From: an uncultured Verrucomicrobiota bacterium
GTDB lineage: Bacteria > Verrucomicrobiota > Kiritimatiellia > RFP12 > UBA3636
Length of the DNA: 47,951 nt
Direction of reading: 5' to 3'
NCBI GenBank assembly: GCA_946534105.1
Contig: CAMNCG010000004.1
Span: 1 to 47,951 of the forward strand
In this document: positions 35,952 through 41,838 of the stretch, in pieces
How the letters are laid out: every line of letters starts with the position of its first letter
Position numbering within the stretch: the first letter of the stretch is position 1
The notes under the pieces: model-generated
Database searches by the model: none
The model's input: only the letters and a program-made list of their open reading frames with translations
What the model was told of the DNA's origin: nothing
Made by a program: the position numbers and the translations under genes

Positions 35952-35982
35952 GCGCTGAAAGACGAGCGGCGTCTTTCAGCGC
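35952..35982 (-). terminator. Strong hairpin across the waaF stop codon
   Basis: GCGCTGAAAGAC and GTCTTTCAGCGC form a 12-bp stem with a 7-nt loop that overlaps the waaF TGA. No U-run follows on the minus strand. It could attenuate transcription into the downstream GT genes or stabilise the upstream mRNA. Confidence 0.5.
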
Positions 35983-37001
35983 CCGGGATCGGAAGACGGG
36001 AGGGAGGAGGGGAAAAGGTGTGGAAGAAGCGGAAGAAGCGCGTCTGCGACGCGGGCGGCGGAGACGGAGAGAAGCGCGGAAACGGCGGCGGGATCGTCGC
36101 GGCGGACGGCGCGGGCGGCCCGGACGCCCTCGGCGCGGACGACGACCGCGCGCGGGCCGACGGGCCCCGTTTTCTCCGGATCGGTGACGCCGAAGACGGC
36201 GACGACGGGAACGCCGAGCGCCGACGCGAGGTGCATGCCGCCGCTGTCGTTGCACAGCACGGCGTCGCACGCGCCGAGAAGCGAGGCGAACTGCGGCAGG
36301 TCCGTGCGCCCGCACAGATCGGGCGCGCCGAGCGCCGAGGCGACGTCGGCGCAGGCGCCTTCCTCCCCCTTGCCGCCGAAGACGGCGAAACGGACGTCCG
36401 GCCGCGCGGCGGCGACGAGCGCCGCGGCTTCGGCGAAGCGCGGCCAGCGTTTCGACGGGCCGCGCGCGGCGCCGGGCACGATCCCGACGAGGGGACCGCC
36501 GCCGCGCGGAAGAAGCGAGGCGAGCGCCGGATCCGGCACGCCGGGGCGAAATCCGGTGTCCGCGGGATCGCACTGCGCGGACCCGCAGAGGATCTTCGCG
36601 TACTCGAAGACCTGGTGAAGGCGCGCCTCCGCGGCGGAAAAGCGCACGGGATCGTTCACGAGCAGCCGCCGCGCGGGCCGCGCGGTGCCGCGCCGGCGCG
36701 GGATCCGGGCGAGAAACGGGGCGACGGCGCTGCGGAAGGAATTCGGAAGGAGAAGCGCCTCCGAAAACCCGGCCGCGCGAAGGCGGCGGGCCGCGCGAAA
36801 CGTGGCGGACTCCGCCTTCGGAAGCGCGAGAACGTCCGCGACGCCTTCGACCGCGCGCCACAGCGGCGCGAGCGCGGGACGCGAAAGCACGGAGACGCGC
36901 GCCTCCGGGCGCTCCCGCACGAGGCGGCGCAGCGCCGGCATCGCCATCACGGCGTCGCCGAGCCAGTTCGGGGAAACGACAAGGAGAGCGTCCGTTTTCA
37001 T
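35976..37001 (-). CDS. waaF: ADP-heptose:LPS heptosyltransferase II
   Basis: A 341-aa GT9 enzyme. The N-terminus VVSPNWLGDAVMAMPALRRL is the WaaF signature region. The second domain has LVGIVPGAARGPSKRWPRF and the GT9 site CNDSGGMHLASALGVPVVAVFG, followed by TDPEKTGPVG. WaaF adds the second heptose of the LPS inner core in the cytoplasm. ATG 37001 overlaps the stop of the small membrane-protein gene as ATGA, which places waaF in the ECF-sigma operon. The exact heptosyltransferase type is inferred from motifs only. Confidence 0.85.
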   Translation of the reverse strand: MKTDALLVVSPNWLGDAVMAMPALRRLVRERPEARVSVLSRPALAPLWRAVEGVADVLALPKAESATFRAARRLRAAGFSEALLLPNSFRSAVAPFLARIPRRRGTARPARRLLVNDPVRFSAAEARLHQVFEYAKILCGSAQCDPADTGFRPGVPDPALASLLPRGGGPLVGIVPGAARGPSKRWPRFAEAAALVAAARPDVRFAVFGGKGEEGACADVASALGAPDLCGRTDLPQFASLLGACDAVLCNDSGGMHLASALGVPVVAVFGVTDPEKTGPVGPRAVVVRAEGVRAARAVRRDDPAAVSALLSVSAARVADALLPLLPHLFPSSLPSSDPGR

Positions 37002-37381
37002 TGCGGAAAGTCCGGACGGGGTTCCGGCGGATCGCCCGGAAGGTCCACGGGCTCGAATTCCGGGTCAAGTTCCGGCACGGCGTCGCCACCGGGCGCGGAG
37101 AGCGTCATTTCAACCGGCGGAAGAAGGCTTTCCCTGCGGGCCCGGATGGCGAAGAGAACGGCCGCGACGGCCGCGACGACGAGCGTCGCGACGCACAGCG
37201 CGGTGGCGCGATGGTGGCTGGCGAGAAACGCCAGAAGCGGACGCTCCATGAACCAGACGAGCCGTTCGCGGCGGCGTCCGGAGAGTCCCGGCGGCGCGGC
37301 TTTCGCGGGATCGCGCGCGCGAAACCACGCGGCGATTTCGTCCCACTGCGCGTCCTCGCGCGCGGTTTGGGTCGCGTTCAT
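36998..37381 (-). CDS. Small single-pass membrane protein, candidate anti-sigma factor
   Basis: A 127-aa protein. The N-terminal cytoplasmic part is about 58 residues and rich in charged residues (MNATQTAREDAQWDEIAAWF). One transmembrane helix follows (TALCVATLVVAAVAAVLFAI, about 60-80). An acidic Pro-rich C-terminus (PELDPEFEPVDLPGDPPEP) completes it. No zinc motif (HxxxCxxC) is present. The anti-sigma call rests only on position: it overlaps both the ECF sigma gene upstream and waaF downstream by ATGA. I do not recognise the sequence itself. Confidence 0.75.
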   Translation of the reverse strand: MNATQTAREDAQWDEIAAWFRARDPAKAAPPGLSGRRRERLVWFMERPLLAFLASHHRATALCVATLVVAAVAAVLFAIRARRESLLPPVEMTLSAPGGDAVPELDPEFEPVDLPGDPPEPRPDFPQ

Positions 37382-37923
37382 CGCGGAAATCCTTTCTTCT
37401 TGGCGGCGAGATGCGCCGCGAGTTTCGCGCGCGCGACGTGAAGAATGAATCCGACATTGCCTTCCGAGAGGCCGGTCGCGGCCGCGATTTCCCGGTAGGA
37501 CATGTCTTCGTAGACCTTCATCGCCACGACGGCGCGATCGCGGGGGGAGAGGATGGAGAGCGCTTCGGCGGCCTCCGCGGCGGCGTCGGAGACGTCGCCC
37601 GGCGCGCCGCCCTGCCCGCTCGACGGCGCAACGGCGCCTCCCCGCTCCTCGGCGCCGCGCAGATGGAGCGCGCGAAGGCGCTCTTCGCGCCGCACGGCGT
37701 CAACCGCGGCGTTGTGGACGGTGCGGCGGAGCCACAGGGTCATCTGAGGCGAAGGTTCGAGCGGGCCCTTCCACGACGTCGCGAAGCGCAGGAAGGCGTC
37801 CTGCACGATGTCCTCCGCCGCGGAAGGATTGCCGGAGACGCGCGCCGCGTACGCGACGAGCGGGCCGCCGTATTCGCCGACGATCCGCTCGAAAAGCGAG
37901 TGTCTTCCGTCCGGACCGCCCAT
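37378..37923 (-). CDS. ECF-type RNA polymerase sigma factor
   Basis: A 181-aa protein. Region 2 reads LVAYAARVSGNPSAAEDIVQDAFLRF, with TLWLRRTVHNAAVDAVRREE. Region 4 reads LSILSPRDRAVVAMKVYEDMSYREIAAATGLSE and ends RAKLAAHL. An Ala/Gly-rich linker of about 35 residues joins them. It would direct RNA polymerase to a small regulon. Its gene lies 3 nt after the WPFW lipoprotein gene and overlaps the membrane-protein gene. The operon content suggests the regulon concerns the envelope. Confidence 0.9.
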   Translation of the reverse strand: MGGPDGRHSLFERIVGEYGGPLVAYAARVSGNPSAAEDIVQDAFLRFATSWKGPLEPSPQMTLWLRRTVHNAAVDAVRREERLRALHLRGAEERGGAVAPSSGQGGAPGDVSDAAAEAAEALSILSPRDRAVVAMKVYEDMSYREIAAATGLSEGNVGFILHVARAKLAAHLAAKKKGFPR

Positions 37924-37926
37924 CGC

Positions 37927-39348
37927 CTAGTCTTCGTCGCTCCCGAAGAGCCAGAGGAAGCGCCACCGCGACGACCCGTCGGCGCGGCCGGAGCGGCCGA
38001 GCAGGCCTCCGAAAAGCGACCAGTCCCACGCGCCGTCCCCGCCTTCGCCGCTGCGGAGGATTCCCCAGAGCCATTCGCGGTCGACGCGGCGCGGCGCACC
38101 GTCCGCTCCCGTGTTTTCGCCGCGGGTGTACAAGGTGAACATCCCGAGAAGGTTCCGCTCCAGCGGCCCTTCTCGCTTCTGGAAGGAGAAATCGGGAATG
38201 CGCGTGTAGCGGCGCGCCGGATCATGCCGCCGCGACCAGAACGGCCACGCGCGCACGTAGCGCTCTTCGAGCGCGTAGCCGCCCGGCGCGTCCGCGTCGG
38301 CGCGCTCGGCCGTGGAGGCGTGGAAGACCGGAAACAGAGACCATTCGGAAACGCGGCGCGTCCGCGTGACGGACCGCCGATCGCTCCAGAACGGCCACAG
38401 CACGATGCGCGAGGAGGCCTTGCCGTCCTCGCGCCAGCGGCGGCCGTAGAACGGGAAGAACCGCCGCGCGTGCGCGTCCTCGTCGTCCCGCAGCAGGACG
38501 AGCGGCCACGGCGCCCACGTCTTTCGATACGCGGGCGTCCTGCCGCGGCCGGACGCGTGCGAAAAGAACGGCGGAAGGACGTACCACGCGTTTTCGTTCG
38601 TGCGCGAGACGTGGCCGGCGAGCGGCCAGAGCATCCAGTCCGAACCGGGGTTCACGCCAACGTGTTCGGCCCGCGTCCAGAACGGCCACAGGACGAACGA
38701 GGCGTCGTAGTGCCCGTCGAACTTCGAGCGCCCCCACAGCGGAAAGATCCGCGTGGCGTCCCGCCGCGGACCGGTCTGGCGCTGGACGATCGGCCAGAGC
38801 GCGCTCCACGTGTGGTTGCCGTTGCGGTCCCACGTCGCCCACAGCGGAAACAGCGCGAACGAAATCCGGTCGTAGTACATTTCCCGGATCGTCCCGCCGA
38901 GCGGGAACAGCGCGGCGTAGTCCTCGCCGGTCTTCGCCGTGCCGGAGAACCAGAACGGGAAGAGCCACGTCCGGTCCTGCGGAGACGTTTCGCCGGAAGC
39001 GTCCTTCTCCATGCCGGAGAAGATCAGAAAACGCCACGCCGTCTGGCCGGAGCGTTCGCTCCTCGAATAGAGAGGCCACAGCCACTCGGAGAGCGCCACG
39101 CCCGGCTCGGCCGCCTCGATGCGCGTGTGCAGGAGCGGCCGCCAGGATTCGCGCCGCGCGCCGTCCTCGGTGCGCACCTCCTCCCAGAACGGCCCCGCCT
39201 TGCGGGCGCCGGAAATCCTCCGCCCCTCCGCCGGACGGCCCCACAGCAGGTGCGCGTCGCGCGCGCGCCCGGTCGGGGCGGACGCGCAGCCGGCGCAGAG
39301 CAGCGCGATGACCGAACACGCGGCCGGGATCAGGTGTGAAAGGCGCAT
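37927..39348 (-). CDS. Lipoprotein with repeated W-P-F-W motifs
   Basis: A 473-aa protein. The signal peptide and lipobox are MRLSHLIPAACSVIALLCAG with Cys21 as the lipidated residue, so it is a lipoprotein. The mature part consists of repeats of about 40-50 residues, each containing a W/F-P-L/F-W/F core. Examples are FPFWFSG, FPLWATW, FPLWGRS, LWPFWTR, FFPFYGRR, LWPFWSD and AWPFWSRR. The aromatic spacing suggests a beta-propeller or beta-barrel-like repeat. I do not recognise a named family. It lies directly upstream of the ECF sigma factor and downstream of a second lipoprotein, so it may feed into that regulatory operon. Confidence 0.82.
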   Translation of the reverse strand: MRLSHLIPAACSVIALLCAGCASAPTGRARDAHLLWGRPAEGRRISGARKAGPFWEEVRTEDGARRESWRPLLHTRIEAAEPGVALSEWLWPLYSRSERSGQTAWRFLIFSGMEKDASGETSPQDRTWLFPFWFSGTAKTGEDYAALFPLGGTIREMYYDRISFALFPLWATWDRNGNHTWSALWPIVQRQTGPRRDATRIFPLWGRSKFDGHYDASFVLWPFWTRAEHVGVNPGSDWMLWPLAGHVSRTNENAWYVLPPFFSHASGRGRTPAYRKTWAPWPLVLLRDDEDAHARRFFPFYGRRWREDGKASSRIVLWPFWSDRRSVTRTRRVSEWSLFPVFHASTAERADADAPGGYALEERYVRAWPFWSRRHDPARRYTRIPDFSFQKREGPLERNLLGMFTLYTRGENTGADGAPRRVDREWLWGILRSGEGGDGAWDWSLFGGLLGRSGRADGSSRWRFLWLFGSDED

Positions 39349-39384: not shown

Positions 39385-39801
39385 CTACCGCGCGAACGAG
39401 CAGGAATACGTTCCGCCGCCGTACTTGTAGCCGGTGCCGGAAAGGCGGTTCCCGGAAAACGAGAGTTTCCATGTGTCACCGCCCCCGATGTGGAGCGTGA
39501 CGGACGCGCCGCTGCGCGTCCCGGACACGCTGCGCGTGTCGCCGGGCCAGGCGAGGGAACCGGAAATCTTCCCGTTCGTTTCGGAGAGGTAGAGCTTCGA
39601 GGAGGCCTGGCCCGTGCCCGACCGGCCGGACCACGTGCCGGACACGCTCGACGAAGACGCCGAAGAGGACGAAGACGTGGAGGCCGCAGGGGCGTTCTGG
39701 TAGACGTAGACCGTTTTGCTCTCGTGGTCTTCGCAGGAGCAGAGGAAGACCGCGGCAACGAGAGCGGCGGCGACGGAAAGAAGTGGAAAGCGAGTTTTCA
39801 T
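39385..39801 (-). CDS. Small lipoprotein with a Ser-rich linker and a beta domain
   Basis: A 138-aa protein. The signal peptide ends in a lipobox near FLCSC (Cys23). A Ser/Ala-rich linker ([16 protein letters not shown]) precedes a beta-rich domain of about 85 residues with alternating strands, [19 protein letters not shown] and [20 protein letters not shown]. The fold looks lipocalin-like. Function unknown. It has its own upstream promoter and heads a run continuing to the WPFW lipoprotein, with lolD just upstream. Confidence 0.8.
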
Positions 39802-39901: not shown

Positions 39902-40603
39902 TCAGTCGCGGCCGATGCGGACCGTGCGGTCGCAACGGGCGGCGATGGCGTCCGAATGGGTCACCACGACGAGCGCCGGGGCGGCGTCGGAAAAGCGGCC
40001 GGAAAGATCGAAGAGCAGATCGAGCACGGCGTCGCCGGTCGCGGGGTCGAGGTTGCCCGTGGGCTCGTCGGCGAGAACGAGGCCGGGGGCGTTCATGAGC
40101 GAGCGGGCCACGGCGACGCGCTGCTGCTCGCCGCCGGAAAGCTCCGCGGGGCGGTGCCCGAGACGGTCCGAAAGCCCGGCGGCGGCGAGCAGGTCGCGCG
40201 CGCGGCGGAGCGCGGCGTCGCGTGAAAAACGCGGAGCGGCGCGCGCCGGAAGCGCGACGTTCTCCTCGATCGGAAGTTCCGGAAGGAGATGGAACGACTG
40301 GAAGACGAACCCGATGCCGGTGGCGCGGACGAGCGCGCGGACGCGCTCCGGCGCGCCGACGATGTCGCGCCCCGCGATTTCGACGCGGGCGCCGAAGCCT
40401 GGATCGGGCGAATCGAGGCCGCCGAGAAGATTCAATAGTGTGCTCTTGCCGGAGCCGGAGCGCCCGAGCACGGCGACGTGCTCCCCGGGTTCCACGCGCA
40501 GGGACACGCCGGAAAGGACCTTCAGGGGCGGCGCGCCGGGAAGGCGGTAGGTCTTGTGCAGGTTTTCCGCGAAAAGGGCCGGAACGGACATGGACGTCGT
40601 CAT
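39902..40603 (-). CDS. lolD: Lipoprotein-releasing ABC transporter ATP-binding protein
   Basis: The start is ATG 40603 ([19 protein letters not shown]), overlapping the LolC/E stop as ATGA. The tracked longer N-terminus is shadow. The product is 233 aa. Walker A is GRSGSGKST, the Q-loop region is [12 protein letters not shown], the signature is [15 protein letters not shown], Walker B is [12 protein letters not shown], and the H-loop is VVVTHSD. LolD powers release of outer-membrane lipoproteins from the inner membrane. It is paired with the LolC/E gene upstream, and two lipoprotein genes follow. MacB-type ATPases are close relatives, but the permease partner supports Lol. Confidence 0.88.
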
Positions 40604-41838
40604 TTCTGGTTGAGCGCCTTCACCGGATCGAGGCGCGAGGCGAGATACGCGGGCAGAAACGCGGCCGCGGAGCAGAACAGGAAGACGGTCGCGACGACCG
40701 CCGCGACGTCCCCCGGAACGACGCGCCACGGAATCTCGGCGAGCCCGTACACGGACTTCGGGAAGACTTCAAGGCCGAAGGAGGCGAGAAGCGCGACGAG
40801 GCGCTGCAAGTTGTGCAGGACGAGCGCGCCGAGCACCGCGCCGAGCGCTTCGCCGGCGACGCACTGCAGAAGGCCGCCGACCACGAACGAGGCGCGGATG
40901 CGGCCGGCGGAAAAGCCGAGCGCCTTCAGCAGCCCGATGTCGTGCGTCTTCTGGATCGTGATGACGATGAGCGTGTTGGTCACGCAAAACGCGGCGACGA
41001 CCGCGATGAACGCGAGAAGCACGAACATCATCGTCTTTTCAGTCCGAAGGGCGTTGAAGAGGACGCGGTCCTGCTCCTCCCACGTCGCGACCTTGTACCC
41101 GGGTCCGAGCGCGGCGGAGAGCGAGAACGCCGCCTCCCACGCCCTTTCGGGTTCCTCGACCTGCACGTTGACCATCCCGGCGCCGGAATCGAGGCCCAGC
41201 AGGTCTCGCGCCATGCCGAGAGAGCAGACGATCACGCCGTCGTCAAAATCCCGCATGCCGAGGTCGTAGACGCCCGCGACGCGCATCTGCTCCGGAAACC
41301 ACAGTTCATCCGCCGAGCGGAGGTTGAGCGGGGAATAGCAGAGTAGACGCGAGCCGGGTCCGAGCCCGAGCCGCCACGCGAAATCGACGCCCACGACGGC
41401 GCCGTCCTCGACCGGGGAAAACGAGCCGGACGCCATCTTGGACGAAAGCCCGGAGAGCATCGACGGGCGCAACGCGTCGACGCCGACGACGGTGACCGTG
41501 ACGGGATCGCCGCCCGCTTCGTCGCGCGCCATGGCCGGGAACACGATCGCCGGCGACGCCGACACGACCCCCGGCACGGCTTCCGCCGCGGCGCACACCT
41601 TCTCCGGGTCTTCCACGACGCCGGAAAAATGCGTCACGACAACGTGCGGCTTGAACGAAAGGATCTTCTCGCGCCAGACGTCGCCAAACCCCGTCATCAC
41701 CGCCAGCACGATCATCAGGATCGCCACGCCGAGCGCGACCCCGGTCACGGTGATGACGGGGATGACCGAGGCGAACGACCTGCGCGGACGCAGGCACACG
41801 AGCGCGAAGTAGAGCGGAAAACCCATGACGGCGCCCAT
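40600..41838 (-). CDS. Lipoprotein-releasing system permease (LolC/LolE family)
   Basis: A 412-aa protein of the FtsX/LolCE family. An N-terminal transmembrane helix (VTGVALGVAILMIVLAVMTGF) is followed by a large periplasmic domain (about 50-270) and three C-terminal helices, including MFVLLAFIAVVAAFCVTNTL and VVATVFLFCSAAAFLPAYLA. Position 838 is the tracked ATG. ATG 41826 (MGFPLYFAL) is an equally possible start. Only one permease gene is present next to lolD, so it may work as a homodimer as in LolF-type systems. It extracts mature lipoproteins for transfer to the outer membrane. Confidence 0.88.
   Translation of the reverse strand: MGAVMGFPLYFALVCLRPRRSFASVIPVITVTGVALGVAILMIVLAVMTGFGDVWREKILSFKPHVVVTHFSGVVEDPEKVCAAAEAVPGVVSASPAIVFPAMARDEAGGDPVTVTVVGVDALRPSMLSGLSSKMASGSFSPVEDGAVVGVDFAWRLGLGPGSRLLCYSPLNLRSADELWFPEQMRVAGVYDLGMRDFDDGVIVCSLGMARDLLGLDSGAGMVNVQVEEPERAWEAAFSLSAALGPGYKVATWEEQDRVLFNALRTEKTMMFVLLAFIAVVAAFCVTNTLIVITIQKTHDIGLLKALGFSAGRIRASFVVGGLLQCVAGEALGAVLGALVLHNLQRLVALLASFGLEVFPKSVYGLAEIPWRVVPGDVAAVVATVFLFCSAAAFLPAYLASRLDPVKALNQK

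Follow-up and report, generated by a model that had tools for sequence, protein, structure and literature searches.

A zinc-finger-less homologue of RsiW-type anti-sigma factors between an extracytoplasmic function sigma factor and waaF in an uncultured Verrucomicrobiota bacterium

We wanted to know which kind of protein is encoded by the small membrane-protein gene lying between an extracytoplasmic function (ECF) sigma factor gene and waaF in an uncultured Verrucomicrobiota bacterium, and which neighbouring genes belong with it. The window analysed is the whole contig C4 (CAMNCG010000004.1, 47,951 nucleotides) of a 3.9-Mb draft genome (GCA_946534105.1). Its minus strand carries, in this order, a gene for a "WPFW" lipoprotein, the sigma factor gene, a gene for a 127-residue protein with one transmembrane (TM) helix, and the heptosyltransferase gene waaF. 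An earlier note on this sequence had described stop-start overlaps between the last three genes and a gap of 3 nt behind the lipoprotein gene, and the coordinates confirmed this layout. The lipoprotein stop codon TAG is followed by GCG and then by the sigma ATG at 37923, the sigma TGA and the membrane-protein ATG share ATGA at 37378-37381, and the membrane-protein TGA and the waaF ATG share ATGA at 36998-37001. For comparison, we used 59 relative genomes, mostly drafts, in which genes were called with a simple codon-bias caller and then verified by reading frames; a gene missing from an incomplete genome is by itself no proof of absence. The window's genome is G000, G001-G010 belong to its genus (g1), and G011-G018 to other genera of the family, G011 representing the sister genus g2. 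The explanation that we favour, with reserve, is that the sigma factor and the membrane protein form an ECF sigma/anti-sigma pair of RsiW descent, the anti-sigma of which would have been trimmed in the ancestor of g1 and g2, is likely still inhibitory, and stands with its sigma factor at the head of a waaF operon.

The sigma factor has the make-up of an ECF (group IV) protein: about 180 residues with a sigma2 and a sigma4 domain only (Pfam Sigma70_r2, 6e-12, residues 15-82; Sigma70_r4_2, 4e-13, residues 119-168), a score over the cut-off of TIGR02937 and a conserved P-x-x-GQGG linker. The top PDB match of its profile was SigW of Bacillus subtilis (5wuq_A, 3.6e-20), and the top named matches of its alignment were metagenome genomes of Verrucomicrobiota/Kiritimatiellae. 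Orthologs were found in all six high-quality genomes of the family, and beyond it in family f6 and in two named Kiritimatiellae. In every genome with an ortholog, the next downstream gene on the same strand overlaps the sigma gene by a few bases (ATGA-type or 1-20 nt).

This partner gene turned out to differ between genera. In the window, the membrane protein had no match to any Pfam or NCBIfam family, and neither it nor the congeners tested matched zf-HC2 (PF13490, C-Xn-H-X3-C-X2-C), the zinc signature of the ZAS anti-sigma family. Relatives outside the g1+g2 clade have that signature: zf-HC2 scored above the Pfam cut-off in the sigma partners of G012, G014, G016, G017 and G023, and the pattern C...H-x3-C-x2-C was present in those of G013, G018, G038, G041, L165 and L166. 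The C-terminal part of the zf-HC2 partners can be aligned with the window protein (24-36% identity to it) and its congeners, which occupy the same position after the sigma gene; this indicates common descent with the ZAS family outside the lost domain. A PDB profile search pointed the same way, with RsiW as the top match (2.2e-6) followed by ChrR (2e-4) and RsrA (8e-4), and a fold search with the anti-sigma homologue gave weak matches only, led by the anti-sigmas RslA and ChrR. RsiW is also encoded directly after its sigma gene, has one TM helix, and can be aligned over the end of helix 3 and the linker. As judged from these alignments, the sigma factor and the membrane protein descend from an RsiW-type pair of ECF factor and zinc anti-sigma. 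The earlier note had thus guessed well in calling the membrane protein a possible anti-sigma, and had missed that the zinc-finger sigma-binding bundle is gone.

The zinc-ligand segment is absent from the partner in the window, G001, G002, G003, G006, G007, G008 and G010 (g1) and in G011 (g2), that is, in nine of the nine clade genomes in which the sigma gene was found. Relocation of the zinc domain to a separate gene was considered and is ruled out for seven of them, since scans of the whole genomes of G000, G001, G003, G007, G008, G010 and G011 gave no zf-HC2 anywhere. The domain occurs exactly once in the genomes of G012 and of G017, each time at the sigma-partner gene. In the sigma tree g1 and g2 are grouped (ultrafast bootstrap/SH-aLRT 93/94), which fits a single loss of the domain.

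Individual genomes showed peculiarities at this locus. In G003 (L066, G003:C17), the N-terminus of the membrane protein has a low-complexity tandem repeat of SPPALQPLHGAAGTPQHG-like units in place of the zinc domain, which is not seen in congeners. In G015 (L069, G015:C289, -11 to +517 from the sigma stop), an in-frame stop splits the anti-sigma into a 62-residue zinc-finger piece and a 108-residue membrane piece, which may reflect a genuine split of the gene, its decay, or an error in the sequence. The gene ahead of the pair in L165 and L166 is of the 2-hydroxyacid dehydrogenase type (serA-like), and a pdxA gene lies downstream of the pair in L166 and in L075 (G038), so that in other Kiritimatiellae the pair is found near genes of serine/pyridoxal phosphate pathways.

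What remains of the anti-sigma was then compared with known structures. The zinc bundle of RsiW consists of helices 1-3, of which helix 1 is in contact with sigma4, and the linker and helix 4 bind sigma2 (PMC5358783); such a dual sigma2/sigma4 interface, with its role for helix 4, is general to class I anti-sigmas (PMC7406223). In the model of the G012 homologue, helices lie at residues 19-30, 36-48, 50-68, 71-78 and 81-91, and the TM helix at 94-129. When these are mapped through the alignment, an assignment based on that alignment and on one model of moderate confidence, the window protein lacks helices 1-2, every one of the CHCC zinc ligands and the N-terminal half of helix 3, and retains the second half of helix 3, a DP linker, the helix-4 equivalent and the TM helix. 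The near-invariant positions of the family cluster at helix 4 and immediately beyond, the most conserved segment. By the positive-inside rule the N-terminus is cytoplasmic, and a proline-rich acidic periplasmic tail follows the TM helix. Going by the alignment and the predicted model, these parts may correspond to the class II form of anti-sigma, a two-helix segment followed by a TM helix without a zinc bundle. Its example, CnrY of Cupriavidus metallidurans, is described as having equivalents of just two RsiW helices, 3 and 4, and as binding its sigma factor CnrH in a similar manner (PMC5358783). Unlike CnrY, the window protein derives from a zinc anti-sigma; it had no sequence match to CnrY in the PDB profile search, and no CnrX-like sensor gene was recognised beside it.

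The retained part is also constrained. A comparison of G010 with G002 gave, for the initial 95 codons of the membrane-protein gene, a nonsynonymous rate (dN) of 0.024 against a synonymous rate (dS) of 0.264 (dN/dS about 0.09), and for the sigma gene a dN of 0.05 and a dS of 0.31. As dN is low relative to dS, the trimmed gene is selected and not decaying, and judging from this pair of genomes the retained part is under strong purifying selection, with a constraint matching that of the sigma gene.

The third gene of the cluster, waaF, encodes a protein scoring 169 bits with TIGR02195 (cut-off 134.6), as expected of a heptosyltransferase II of the WaaF/RfaF type. Four-base overlaps are common in the window (ATGA-type in five of the 33 same-strand neighbour pairs called, lolC/lolD among them), so the overlaps alone are uninformative. 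However, sigma gene, membrane-protein gene and waaF stay linked in relatives at protein identities of only about 35-70%, and this persistence is more than chance. The waaF gene follows the pair with an overlap or within 50 nt in G000, G001, G003, G010 and G011, at about 155 nt in G007, and with one additional gene in between in G008. In G002 and G006 the contig stops short of its position, and the link is thus present in seven of the seven clade genomes with contigs long enough, despite differing neighbours upstream of the sigma gene. Outside the clade, waaF stands after a SurA-like gene following cysS (G013, G014, G016, G018) or elsewhere away from the sigma gene (G015, G017, f6), G012 not being judgeable. 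Therefore, waaF adjoins the sigma pair only in g1+g2, an operon context that sets it apart from other WaaF/RfaF genes, and as these are the zinc-less genera, the link dates from, or from close to, the loss of the zinc domain. The gene order that the earlier note wanted to see conserved is accordingly kept for these three genes within g1 and its sister g2, while the lipoprotein gene is on other contigs in relatives. Control of LPS (lipopolysaccharide) core synthesis, also proposed there, gained no support, given that orthologous pairs outside the clade are not near waaF and that no ECF promoter common to the upstream regions of the sigma genes was found.

It is quite conceivable, if less than probable, that waaF is a passenger here, brought in by a rearrangement accident and held there through translational coupling, without any meaning for regulation; this is compatible with our explanation of the sigma pair itself. 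The routine occurrence of 4-nt overlaps in the window and the other neighbour that waaF has in the four cysS/SurA-type genomes would fit this. Its persistence in seven of seven genomes, even with the intervening gene of G008 and with changing genes upstream, argues for more than an accident. Control of waaF by the sigma factor, with an effect on LPS, would be a candidate role.

Does the trimmed protein still inhibit its sigma factor? Our favoured explanation, an anti-sigma reduced in the g1+g2 ancestor, would run as follows. That ancestor would have lost the zinc ligands together with helices 1-2 and the N-terminal half of helix 3; what was kept would be the TM helix, helix 4, the linker and the last part of helix 3, and the pair would have been placed at the head of an operon with waaF. 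The trimmed protein would most likely hold the sigma factor at the membrane through its remaining helices on sigma2, as CnrY does with CnrH, and the sigma factor might be released by proteolysis or by a conformational signal at the periplasmic tail. Position, homology and constraint are what suggest sigma binding and inhibition; the signal and any effect on LPS are inferences.

Several points weigh against this explanation. The clade support of 93/94 is slightly below the strict level. The lost bundle includes helix 1, the sigma4 contact of known class I anti-sigmas, and its loss could abolish inhibition. The sigma4 residue that corresponds to SigW H174, a helix-1 contact, is kept in all but two of the clade's sigma factors, so there is no sign at this position that the sigma factor adapted to the loss of helix 1. 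Finally, a dyad search of 19 regions upstream of sigma genes found no shared ECF promoter, with counts scarcely above those of shuffled sequences and GC-rich words only; GGAAC-type -35 patterns were essentially absent from the same 19 regions, and scans of the window region for sigma-70-like promoters and terminators gave nothing above chance. An adaptation of the sigma factor was also sought at residue 19, near the start of region 2.1, which is Glu in ten of ten sigma factors with a zinc-finger partner and Gly or Asn in nine of nine with a zinc-less one. This switch and the other changes separating the two groups fall on one branch only and are indistinguishable from descent, and the candidate was rejected.

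Reading by eye, we found a near-identical TTGCGC-17 nt-TATACT a few bases before the sigma ATG in G010 (L073) and G002 (L076), and TTGCGC-17-TAGAAT in G006. This resembles a housekeeping promoter whose leader is very short, and because of it the sigma factor need not be autoregulated. Together with the loss of the sigma4-contacting helix, it lends something to the view that the trimmed protein no longer inhibits, that the sigma factor is controlled by its own transcription, and that the membrane protein is kept for another role, as a sigma tether or a partner of the WaaF step. We hold this to be rather unlikely, since the conserved remainder contains helix 4, the element that binds sigma2, under a constraint equal to that of the sigma gene, and since the position of the membrane protein straight after the sigma gene was never lost. 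The minimal anti-sigma is favoured over loss of function because CnrY, with counterparts of helices 3 and 4 only, binds its sigma factor similarly.

The lipoprotein has a different history. It matched no Pfam or NCBIfam family, nor PF04333, and is thus not an MlaA. It is present in 53 of the 59 relatives (order sample), and a sample of 241 genomes from the whole phylum contained it in 109, nearly all of them of the window's class. Of the 53, 29 have its gene directly upstream of mlaE on the same strand, as do 72 of 79 further genomes (for example L041, L042, L092 and L100). Genes like mlaF and mlaD come next in most Verrucomicrobiota genomes examined, and in two loci checked with Pfam the genes after the lipoprotein gene encode MlaE, an ABC ATPase (one locus checked) and MlaD, resembling the Mla systems of E. 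coli (MlaA, MlaC, MlaFEDB) and Veillonella (minimal MlaEFD). The window's genus is the exception, with the lipoprotein beside mlaE in none of ten genomes. In G001, a gene X stands directly before mlaE, and the lipoprotein of G003 is preceded by a gene whose product begins similarly, as judged by eye, as expected if an X-lipoprotein-mlaE arrangement had been broken within this genus. Lipoprotein and sigma genes are on different contigs in every relative with both (G001, G002, G003, G006, G007, G008, G010, G011, G012 and others), and their adjacency was seen only in the window. It possibly extends to the closest relative, G005, whose contig C22 ends 50 nt past the lipoprotein; a frame open in these 50 nt, MTGAAPKIEAYE, could be the beginning of a sigma gene. 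Gene neighbourhoods thus point to a component of the Mla phospholipid-transport gene set that came beside the sigma gene recently, and its inclusion in the sigma unit by the earlier note was not upheld. That lipoprotein, anti-sigma, sigma factor and waaF make up one sensing unit for LPS core synthesis is very improbable, for the tight spacing in the window and the possible sigma start in G005 have to be set against the separate contigs in relatives, the link to mlaE in 101 genomes and the distance of the pair from waaF outside the clade.

MlaA was not found in 28, and MlaC not in 29, of the 30 genomes tested. According to published work, MlaD proteins of the Planctomycetes-Verrucomicrobia-Chlamydiae group are without the outer-membrane beta-barrel, and few groups other than Proteobacteria have MlaA and MlaC; the question is raised there whether non-homologous proteins stand in for missing outer-membrane parts in general (PMC10665443). 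The WPFW lipoprotein is a candidate for the outer-membrane side of Mla in Verrucomicrobiota. Its AlphaFold model is all-beta with about 38 short strands (pLDDT 78, pTM 0.53); compared with the PDB, it had no match with a useful TM-score (at most 0.16 over the query), so a propeller, a barrel and a single-layer sheet are all possible. A wider reading joins both halves of the locus: the lipoprotein would be the Mla outer-membrane partner of Verrucomicrobiota, replacing MlaA/MlaC and the beta-barrel of long MlaD, the adjoining anti-sigma would be CnrY-like and trimmed from the RsiW type, and an envelope-stress sigma pair, an Mla lipoprotein and an LPS-core gene would thus share one operon in this lineage. 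We consider this combination doubtful. Just upstream of the lipoprotein gene, the window carries a small lipoprotein-like gene (138 residues, 39385-39801) and lolC-lolD (39902-41838).

Table 1. Features of the sigma factor locus in the window.
Feature	Position	Strand	Basis
ECF sigma factor, SigW-like, 181 aa	37378..37923	-	Pfam, NCBIfam; PDB profile; orthologs in 16 of the 19 genomes of the family
Zinc-finger-less membrane anti-sigma homologue, 127 aa, ATGA-coupled to sigma gene	36998..37381	-	Alignment with zf-HC2 anti-sigmas of relatives
Helix 3 remnant, aa 10-23, then DP linker	37313..37354	-	Alignment to helix 50-68 of the G012 homologue model, C-terminal half
Helix 4 equivalent, aa 34-47, SGRRRERLVWFMER	37241..37282	-	Putatively sigma2-contacting, by homology; near-invariant columns; G012 model helix 81-91
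Single TM helix, aa 60-80	37142..37204	-	Sequence; G012 model helix 94-129
waaF, LPS heptosyltransferase II, 341 aa, ATGA-coupled to anti-sigma homologue	35976..37001	-	TIGR02195
"WPFW" lipoprotein, 473 aa, MRLSHLIPAACSVIALLCAGC followed by ASAP	37927..39348	-	Verrucomicrobiota-wide family normally upstream of mlaE; neighbour only, outside the sigma unit

Altogether, these results point to a change of anti-sigma class around one and the same sigma factor, with a zinc-finger form in the sister genera and a zinc-less minimal form in the clade of the window. Through such a change, the question of which half of the dual sigma2/sigma4 interface suffices for control becomes open to testing. In addition, a nameless lipoprotein family that precedes mlaE in 101 of 132 Verrucomicrobiota genomes offers a concrete candidate for the missing outer-membrane part of Mla.

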